Positions 14,570 through 23,086 of a stretch of DNA of 64,000 nucleotides are shown here, in pieces; the stretch's first letter is position 1, and each line of letters begins with the position of its first letter. The stretch lies in NCBI GenBank assembly GCA_018268355.1, contig JAFDWR010000001.1, positions 415,797 through 479,796 of the forward strand, given 5' to 3'. The translations under genes and the position numbers were made by a program. Source of the stretch: Armatimonadota bacterium. Lineage in GTDB: Bacteria > Armatimonadota > Fimbriimonadia > Fimbriimonadales > Fimbriimonadaceae. The notes beneath the pieces were generated by a model that worked only from the letters and a program-made list of their open reading frames with translations, did not search any database and was not told the DNA's origin.

Positions 14570-15313
14570 ATGTCGAACCGACGTGTCCTCGTCACTGGAT
14601 CTTCTCGCGGTATTGGCCGGAGCATCGCGATACGGCTTGCCGCCGAGGGCTGGAACGTAGCCCTGCACTATGTGTCGCACTCCGCGGACGCCTCGGCAGT
14701 GGAGAAGACGATTGGAAGTCGGGCGAGCGGCTGCTATGAGGCGGACCTTGCCCAGCCCGGCGCGGCGAAGGACCTCTTCCATCGCGCTCTCAAGGACGGC
14801 CCCCTCGATGCGGTGGTGAACAACGCCGGTATTTACATGCCGCTCGACTTTGTTGGCGCTGGCGATGCCGCGTTCGAGGCGAACTGGCGGCGCACCTTTG
14901 CGGTGAACTTCGATGCCCCGGTTGAGCTCATCCGTGCGGCGACCAAGTACTTTGCCGAAAAGGGTGGCGGTCGCATCTTGAATGTTGCCAGCCGGGTCGG
15001 ATTCAAGGGCGAAGGCGGTGCCGCGCTCTATGCGGCGAGTAAGGCGGCCCTGATCAACCTCACCCGCAGCTTGGCGGTCGAACTTGCGCCGAAGAACATT
15101 CAGCTTTTTGGCATCGCTCCCGGCTGGGTGGAGACCGCGATGGCCCGTGACGGCATGGACAACCGCCTCGAGGAGATCCTTAGCACGATCCCCGCGGGAC
15201 GAATGGCTTCGCCCGAGGATTGCGCGGCGGCATCGGCCTATTTGCTCTCCGATGACTCCAAGTATCTCTCCGGCGTGATCATCGACATCAACGGCGCGAG
15301 CTACTTCCATTAA
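14570..15313 (+). CDS. short-chain dehydrogenase/reductase (FabG-like)
   Basis: 247 residues with the classical SDR layout: TGSSRGIG cofactor loop (9-16), NNAG (84-87), catalytic Ser141 in NVAS, and Tyr154/Lys158 in YAASK. The GWVETAMA and YLSGVIIDINGA segments are typical of FabG-type 3-oxoacyl reductases, but many SDRs with this pattern act on other substrates and no fatty-acid genes are nearby. It is monocistronic, with a TAAATT -10 immediately upstream. Confidence 0.88.
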   Translation: MSNRRVLVTGSSRGIGRSIAIRLAAEGWNVALHYVSHSADASAVEKTIGSRASGCYEADLAQPGAAKDLFHRALKDGPLDAVVNNAGIYMPLDFVGAGDAAFEANWRRTFAVNFDAPVELIRAATKYFAEKGGGRILNVASRVGFKGEGGAALYAASKAALINLTRSLAVELAPKNIQLFGIAPGWVETAMARDGMDNRLEEILSTIPAGRMASPEDCAAASAYLLSDDSKYLSGVIIDINGASYFH

Positions 15314-15387
15314 TCGATCCGATTGGCAGTGAATTTCTGAACAATTCGGGCCAATACGGTGTATAAAGAATCAGGAACTACATCGTA

Positions 15388-15508
15388 GATCGCCGAGTCG
15401 GGCTTGCCCGAGCGGGGGAACCAAACTTAGGGGTGAAAGACTTCTGTATTTGAAGTCAAGGGCCAGCTCTCGGCCCGAATCCGACAGCTAACCCCGTAGG
15501 CGTGCGAG
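15388..15508 (+). promoter_or_regulatory. cyclic-di-AMP riboswitch (ydaO-yuaA class)
   Basis: The sequence carries the conserved blocks of the ydaO-yuaA aptamer in the right order. These are a 5' P1 strand with ATCGCC, a first hairpin, AGCGGGGGAACCAAA (15411-15425), GGGGTGAA (15430-15437), a variable hairpin, GGCCCGAATCCGACAGCTAA (15472-15491), then CCCCGTAGGCGT closing P1. This class binds cyclic di-AMP and usually shuts off cell-wall hydrolase or potassium-transport genes. A TATAAA at 15362-15367 is a plausible -10. No such target gene follows. Confidence 0.87.
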
Positions 15509-15717
15509 AGTTGACGAAAAAGCCCTGGGCCGCTTCGGCGGAACTAGGATCGACGGGAAGGACAAAGTTGTTTCGAACGTCGACACTGCAGATTCGGTGA
15601 CAACCGCCCTTGTAGTTGCTCGTGTGGACTGATCTCAAGTCTTGCGGGGCAGCGTTGCCATTCAAACCGTGGGAGGAGAGGCACAACCCACGCGGTTCGT
15701 TAGCACCTCCTGTTGAA
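15509..15717 (+). other. structured non-coding tail of the riboswitch transcript
   Basis: No convincing gene is present here. Visible structure includes a CCGC-TTCG-GCGG tetraloop hairpin (15530-15541), a TCGACG/CGTCGA stem (15549-15554 with 15578-15583), CAAC/GTTG (15601-15618), and a longer hairpin AACCGTGGG with CCCA-CG-CGGTT (15665-15697). The GGAGG at 15672-15676 could instead pair with CCTCC at 15706-15710, so two folds compete. A 32-codon open frame starts at GTG 15502 inside the aptamer's closing stem and ends at 15600, with no good ribosome site. It could be an expression platform, a small RNA or a decayed gene. Confidence 0.5.
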
Positions 15718-15745
15718 CGGCCCCCGCTTTAGGGGGCCGAATTTA
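15718..15745 (+). terminator. intrinsic terminator-like hairpin
   Basis: A perfect 8-bp GC-rich stem (15718-15725 with 15732-15739), a 6-base loop and a weak AT-rich tail. It would end the riboswitch transcript before hisB. Confidence 0.65.
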
Positions 15746-15766
15746 TTCTGGTACCTTGGTGGAACG

Positions 15767-16372
15767 ATGAGCAAAGCAGGAAAGGGGATTCGATACGCCG
15801 AAGTGGAGCGCGAGACCACGGAAACGCGGGTGCGCGTCGTCCTTGACCTTGATGGTGGAACCCGACAAGACGTCAACACCGGAATCCATTTCTTTGACCA
15901 CATGCTCACGCTCCTCGCGTTCCACGGCCGAATCGACATCGGCGTGAGCGCAGAAGGCGACGTCCACGTGGACGATCACCACACCGTGGAAGACGTCGGC
16001 ATCGTCCTCGGCAAGGCCTTGAAGGACGCCCTGAAGGGCGACGAACCAATCGCGCGTTACGGCGACAACTCGACGCCGATGGACGAGACCCTGGTGCTCT
16101 GCTCGCTCGACTTTTCGGGTCGCGGTCGCTTCCTGAAGGACCTGCCCTTCAAGCGCGAGAAGATCGGCGACATGTCCACCGAGTGCGTGACCGAGTTCTT
16201 CCACGCCCTCGCCCAGAATGCCGGTTTGACGCTTCACCTGCGCTGCCTCACCTCGGAGAACGACCACCACCTCGCCGAGGCCTGCTTCAAGGCGGTCGGT
16301 CGAGCGATTTTCTCGGCTACCCGCACGATTGATCGTCGTGGCGCACCTTCCACGAAGGGTGTGATCGATTGA
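15767..16372 (+). CDS. hisB: imidazoleglycerol-phosphate dehydratase
   Basis: The 201-residue enzyme for the sixth step of histidine synthesis. Both Mn-binding His-rich repeats are seen: FFDHMLTLLAFHG with DDHHTVEDVGI in the first half, and ENDHHLAEACFKAVGRAI in the second. The family's RxxxERxTxET start reads RYAEVERETTETRV. The ATG at 15767 has GGTGG upstream and a TACCTT hexamer 9 bases before it, so it may have its own promoter downstream of the terminator. The stop overlaps the TTG start of hisH (TTGA). Confidence 0.96.
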   Translation: MSKAGKGIRYAEVERETTETRVRVVLDLDGGTRQDVNTGIHFFDHMLTLLAFHGRIDIGVSAEGDVHVDDHHTVEDVGIVLGKALKDALKGDEPIARYGDNSTPMDETLVLCSLDFSGRGRFLKDLPFKREKIGDMSTECVTEFFHALAQNAGLTLHLRCLTSENDHHLAEACFKAVGRAIFSATRTIDRRGAPSTKGVID

Positions 16373-22537: not shown

Positions 22538-23086
22538 ATGCTGAGTCAAGCGGCCACCCTCGTAATCCTGGTCCTCCAGAGCTCTCCGGCGGAGAAGATC
22601 GTTGCGGGTGCCAAGGCCCAGCTCTCTGCGCCCGCCTTCTACACCCAGCGTTACTATTCAATCCCCTATCCGAACGGCGACGTGCCGAAGAACCGCGGCG
22701 CCTGCACCGACGTGGTCATTCGCGCCCTTCGGGCAGCGGGGAAAGACCTGCAGAAGCTGATTCACGAGGACATGAAGCGCGGAATCCGCTACCCAAGGCA
22801 GGGAAGTCGACCCGATCCGAACATCGACCATCGGCGAGTGCCAAACCAGGCGTTCTTCTTCAAGCGCTTTGGAAAAACGCTGCCTTGTGGGCTCGATTCG
22901 CCGACCTGGAAGCCGGGCGACTTTGTCTATTGGAAGCTCGGCGGCAAGGTCGACCACATCGGAGTGCTCGTGGACCACGTTGGACCAAGCGGCCATTACA
23001 TGGTCGTTCACAACCTCAGCAAAACGATGATGGAAGACGTCCTCGGGGAGTGGGACATCGTCGGGCACTTCCGTTATCCGAAGTAG
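22538..23086 (+). CDS. DUF1287-family secreted protein
   Basis: 182 residues. A short hydrophobic N-terminus (1-17) is followed by the DUF1287 pattern: YTQRYYSIPYPNGDVP, then RGACTDVVIRALRAAG with the conserved Cys, then NIDHRRVPN, and later WKPGDFVYWKLGG...HIGVLVD. The order Cys, then DFVYW, then HIG resembles NlpC/P60-like cysteine peptidases, so a cell-wall role is plausible but not established. It is a leaderless candidate. Confidence 0.85.
   Translation: MLSQAATLVILVLQSSPAEKIVAGAKAQLSAPAFYTQRYYSIPYPNGDVPKNRGACTDVVIRALRAAGKDLQKLIHEDMKRGIRYPRQGSRPDPNIDHRRVPNQAFFFKRFGKTLPCGLDSPTWKPGDFVYWKLGGKVDHIGVLVDHVGPSGHYMVVHNLSKTMMEDVLGEWDIVGHFRYPK

Follow-up and report, generated by a model that had tools for sequence, protein, structure and literature searches.

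Known riboswitches of the ydaO/yuaA class regulate the gene directly downstream, such as those for potassium uptake or cell-wall hydrolases, and every c-di-AMP riboswitch known to us controls, in cis, the gene that follows it. Among other riboswitches, Rli55 is a B12 riboswitch-controlled noncoding RNA of Listeria in which the bound ligand halts the transcript ahead of the functional part, and SreA is a SAM riboswitch for which action in trans has been proposed (PMC8079631). A separate group of regulators, represented by alpha-r14 and NfeR1, comprises anti-Shine-Dalgarno sRNAs of rhizobia (PMC10746234). Precedents exist, then, for riboswitch-headed trans-acting RNAs and for anti-Shine-Dalgarno sRNAs, the two halves of the arrangement considered here. 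In the literature searched, which covers few subscription journals, we found neither a c-di-AMP riboswitch heading an sRNA nor a riboswitch study of Armatimonadetes.

The locus analyzed here lies in a 64,000-nt stretch of an Armatimonadota genome (the window). It is likely that its c-di-AMP aptamer heads a stand-alone RNA bounded by a terminator, and we favor, with somewhat less assurance, the whole proposal that this is a c-di-AMP-sensing noncoding RNA whose box acts in trans by pairing with Shine-Dalgarno-like sequences. The broader suggestion that a c-di-AMP-gated anti-Shine-Dalgarno sRNA regulates a set of mRNAs in trans across this order of Armatimonadota is a tentative one.

The initial annotation had placed a ydaO-yuaA aptamer at 15388-15508 and called for a search with the Rfam covariance model. 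When this search was run, a match to RF00379 enclosed the entire interval, covering model positions 1-134 of 134 at 91.3 bits (E 3.9e-20), well above the gathering score of 38. The match is the sole one in the 2.7-Mb genome, as represented by an incomplete assembly of 7 contigs, and its score is among the highest of the 77 RF00379 matches found in relatives. The window aptamer is, by this full-length match, a real member of the c-di-AMP riboswitch class, and binding of c-di-AMP is predicted. The same genome encodes a diadenylate cyclase (PF02457), so c-di-AMP can be made in this organism. Unlike the known members of the class, which control the next gene, the window copy appears to head a terminator-bounded noncoding RNA. 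The parts of the locus, all on the + strand, are listed in Table 1 (all coordinates are positions in the window).

Table 1. Features of the c-di-AMP aptamer locus in the window
Feature	Position	Strand	Remark
Promoter-like element TGAAC-N19-TATAAA	15338..15367	+	consensus match; -10 ends 13 bases 5' of the aptamer
c-di-AMP (ydaO/yuaA) riboswitch aptamer	15381..15517	+	RF00379, full length
Structured spacer, no conserved ORF	15518..15699	+	folding of the window copy, covariation in g20 relatives
3' domain matched by covariance model R1 from relatives	15637..15751	+	28.0 bits, E 2.3e-6
Weak hairpin UUAGCA-CCUCC-UGUUGA, CCUCC as loop	15700..15716	+	ACCUCCU at 15705-15711 is the conserved box
Intrinsic terminator at the 3' end of the RNA	15718..15749	+	8 G-C pairs, U-rich tail
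TACCTT, candidate -10 of the hisB promoter	15752..15757	+	9 bases 5' of the ATG; weak copy
hisB, first gene of hisB-hisH-hisA	15767..16372	+	PF00475, E 8.6e-61

The neighborhood of the aptamer is largely as first described, with hisB as the next gene (reported to be about 260 bases away, its ATG lying 249 bases 3' of the aptamer) and with a terminator-like hairpin and a TACCTT hexamer in between. The hairpin itself (CGGCCCCC-GCTTTA-GGGGGCCG followed by AATTTATTCT, 15718-15739) ends 28 bases before this ATG. One feature had been overlooked, a box GCACCTCCTG at 15703-15712, immediately 5' of the terminator, which turned out to be the conserved feature of the locus. The interval 15518-15752 folds better than 200 of 200 shuffles (z -2.91), no match to another Rfam family was obtained in the 3' part of the window locus at E values up to 10, and no conserved ORF with a Shine-Dalgarno-like sequence was found between aptamer and terminator. 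Elsewhere in the window, positions 22538-23086 encode a DUF1287 protein (PF06940, E 2e-56).

The same arrangement recurs in related genomes. A search for RF00379 in 61 Fimbriimonadales genomes gave 77 matches in 43 genomes, and comparison of all these loci defined a type A locus, in which an aptamer is followed by a structured spacer and a box (C)ACCTCCT, with a strong hairpin only a few bases beyond the box. Exactly one such locus is present in each of 29 of the 43 aptamer-bearing genomes, a count of related genomes from two families and many genera and not of independent events. The box lies ~55 to 190 bases after the aptamer, usually as CACCTCCTG and in G027 and G021 as a close variant of ACCTCC; the strong hairpin at the terminator position in 29 of 29 type A loci is part of their definition. 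A stricter automatic count found ACCTCC plus hairpin at 27 of the 77 loci. Dinucleotide shuffling, repeated for 40 rounds, produced 0.18 such loci on average and never more than 1. For CACCTCCT plus hairpin, the count was 24 loci and none in the shuffles. In addition, a GGAAC-like box followed by 19-20 bases and TAnnnT is recurrent upstream of these aptamers, and a strict scan detected the promoter-like element at 14 of 29 type A loci versus 7 of 48 other aptamer loci.

Beyond this set, the core-gap-box pattern was found in 21 of 85 genomes of family f1 and 5 of 8 genomes of family f5, with at most 1 match to a reversed control pattern. Among 84,980 species, each represented by one genome, the pattern occurred in 14 MAG records, 13 of them labelled Armatimonadetes, Fimbriimonadales, Fimbriimonas or Chthonomonadaceae. 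The remaining record, a Phycisphaerae-labelled MAG contig (L111, JAPKGY010000067.1), contains an f5 type A RNA nearly identical to that of G044 and probably reflects misassignment or contamination.

Conservation extends to the structure of the spacer and the 3' domain. Compensatory changes were present in 20 of 60 predicted spacer pairs among seven relatives of genus g20, where 500 of 500 shuffles fell below the real alignment in covariation score and in four additional measures, and slid controls were far lower. Of 113 genomes in the order, 19 gave a match, in each case a single one, to a covariance model built from relatives for the 3' part only, with the aptamer left out (R1). These matches comprise 17 known type A loci and 2 new ones, both behind RF00379 aptamers; every match thus follows a c-di-AMP aptamer, and no 3' domain lacking one was found. 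The R1 match in the window is the single one in that genome and rests mainly on the box and the terminator, since its alignment skips the middle helices. An Rfam scan of the loci of nine relatives gave as its sole other match a sub-threshold ctRNA_p42d, located elsewhere in L040.

The initial annotation had left three options for the aptamer, namely that it regulates histidine synthesis, that its target is a small RNA or short peptide, or that its gene has been lost. The small-RNA option is the one best supported by these data, because the aptamer is conserved together with box and terminator as a unit, present once per genome, with varied downstream genes or none. A short peptide is unlikely because no ORF is conserved between aptamer and terminator. 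Comparison of relatives for a gene lost or retained there revealed no consistent gene in the interval, which is instead a conserved structured RNA. A decaying riboswitch that has lost its gene would account for the absence of a gene directly behind the window aptamer, yet this reading is highly improbable given an aptamer score among the best in the group and the conservation of box, terminator and spacer structure across genera.

The RNA that we propose would be about 370 nt long, with its own putative promoter, the aptamer, the structured spacer, the ACCUCCU box and the intrinsic terminator. Binding of c-di-AMP may change either completion of the RNA or exposure of its box, and the relatives suggest how this could occur. 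All 8 f5 loci have a run of at least 5 T behind a hairpin, 57-66 nt past the aptamer, and such an internal intrinsic terminator suggests that ligand-controlled early termination there would determine if the part carrying the box is synthesized. No early terminator is seen between the aptamer and the 3' domain in the window, where the region 15200-15900 contains the final terminator only, so control of this copy may act by refolding or box exposure. The layout resembles that of Rli55, as it consists, by sequence and conservation, of an aptamer and then a noncoding RNA that ends in a terminator, and the f5 loci also share the order of aptamer, early terminator, 3' domain and final terminator. 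It differs from Rli55 in its ligand (c-di-AMP as opposed to B12), in the anti-Shine-Dalgarno-like box and, for the window copy, in lacking an early terminator. SreA resembles our proposal in being a terminated riboswitch RNA with a proposed action in trans, but SreA regulates its own operon in cis as well, whereas cis control of hisB is disfavored here.

No element of the spacer is shared more strictly than the ACCUCCU box, whose letters are those of the anti-Shine-Dalgarno end of 16S rRNA; a search for SSU rRNA in the assembly of the window genome found none. In folding predictions the accessibility of the box somewhat exceeds that of the remaining G+C-rich pentamers in these RNAs, with a mean rank of 0.69. 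A hairpin with CCUCC in its loop and at least 4 contiguous stem pairs is formed at 21 of 32 f1 loci. A universal CCUCC hairpin was rejected, as the stem is missing in about one third of the f1 loci and in all f5 loci. The f5 box region contains CCUGAC, whose complement, GUCAGG, occurs invariantly upstream, so part of the box could serve RNA structure in that family. The idea that the box pairs with GGGGUG of the aptamer core was also rejected, since the f5 core is GGGGCG and the box is kept, and since f1 offers no common partner.

By analogy with NfeR1, the box would pair in trans with Shine-Dalgarno-like sequences and so block translation of the mRNAs that carry them (PMC10746234). The target searches described below, which were negative, count against this part of the proposal. 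The RNA shares with alpha-r14 and NfeR1 a fixed C-rich anti-Shine-Dalgarno motif that lies in unpaired regions and is surrounded by variable stems. NfeR1 carries three hairpins with CCUCCUCCC and has no described riboswitch; the alpha-r14 signature of three hairpins, each with CCUCCUCCC, is absent here, where a single ACCUCCU box is combined with a c-di-AMP aptamer.

The principal cis-acting alternative is that the locus is an attenuation leader of hisBHA, in which c-di-AMP lets the terminator at 15718-15739 form and turns histidine synthesis off, while an antiterminator permits read-through in the absence of ligand. In its favor, c-di-AMP riboswitches can work via terminators (PMC9337991), the window terminator lies close to the hisB start, and hisB is the commonest downstream neighbor in family f1; among 41 type A loci tested, 14 have it 3' of the RNA on the same strand. 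Other downstream contexts are diverse: in G020 an SDR gene comes next, with 67% identity to the gene upstream of the window aptamer; several f5 loci are followed by what reads as a peptidyl-prolyl-isomerase-like gene, in some cases with its own TATACT element 3' of the terminator; and further type A loci have no near gene on the strand of the RNA. Thirteen genomes were checked for the location of hisB; in nearly all of those without it downstream of the RNA, the gene is placed elsewhere, and in G018 it was not found. As judged from these arrangements, the RNA is independent of the downstream gene.

Three observations disfavor read-through into hisB: a -10-like element between terminator and start codon at most hisB loci, the many genomes that keep the RNA and have hisB elsewhere, and the antisense MarR-like gene that separates terminator from hisB in G017. 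In most downstream copies this element is a TA-rich hexamer, TATAAC or one like it, that precedes the ATG by ~8 bases, a position that would fit a leaderless or near-leaderless mRNA. The lack of a conserved upstream partner for the box in the f1 loci also argues against an attenuator, and retention of the box beside the GGGGCG core of f5 aptamers argues against a switch based on box-core pairing. Both the terminator and a candidate hisB promoter, identified by consensus, lie between the aptamer and the adjacent gene, and the downstream gene is not conserved among the loci. An attenuation leader with no intervening promoter and a conserved link to hisB is not what is found, so this explanation is unlikely and hisB in the window is probably not under riboswitch control.

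Some hisB copies are themselves unusual. Those that follow the RNA at L005 (G002) and L007 (G021), each the only hisB of its genome, lack the usual HFFDHM and DDHHTVED motifs and score 134 and 132 bits against PF00475, compared with about 200 for the others; the missing motifs and far lower scores suggest that they probably encode no active IGP dehydratase. In addition, G005 contains a second, weak copy of hisB.

A second alternative retains the stand-alone RNA and changes its function, with box and 3' domain acting as a decoy that sequesters a protein or a component of the ribosome, as Rli55 does with EutV. The f5 loci resemble Rli55, where a riboswitch is followed by an early terminator and then by the functional 3' domain (PMC8079631), and the box sequence is fixed, yet no extended or conserved mRNA complement to it was found. 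For example, a one-mismatch search of 61 genomes for an extended mRNA complement of the box gave matches at about the control frequency, with no shared target gene among the 20 regions examined. The pattern AGGAGGTG-N2-9-ATG occurred at 5 sites in the window genome versus 4 for the control, with no convincing gene start. However, no protein partner for a decoy is known, and the exact match of the box to an anti-Shine-Dalgarno sequence favors base pairing, so we regard sequestration as improbable.

If the RNA works in trans as we propose, a second messenger would gain an RNA output that reaches many mRNAs at once. As its aptamer is the only one for c-di-AMP in the window genome, this RNA would be the whole known RNA output of the signal there. 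The type A unit is also compact and has homologues in many genera.

Other c-di-AMP aptamers in these genomes precede protein-coding genes. A second class lies ~15-110 bases upstream of the gene for a small basic protein, B1 (L017, L021, L065, L013, L058, L074 and others), of about 90-110 aa with the pattern MLTEFEVRR...RKARRLL and no Pfam match in the one member scanned. Control of B1 in trans was considered and rejected, as its homologue in the window genome (G000 C4:262083-262337) has neither an aptamer nor a Shine-Dalgarno sequence. A protein of 105-142 aa, B2, is encoded 3' of c-di-AMP aptamers at L067, L071, L075, L069, L035, L031 and L076, often behind a GGAGGT-type Shine-Dalgarno sequence; several of its members end in PFMEYSS or similar, and the one scanned had no Pfam match. 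Finally, the aptamers of L012, L061, L064 and L066 lie ~280-410 bases upstream of an MFS-like transporter gene. At L012 and L061, ACCTCC occurs 157-178 bases past the aptamer and is then followed by no terminator hairpin, an arrangement that may represent a relative of the type A RNA that acts in cis.
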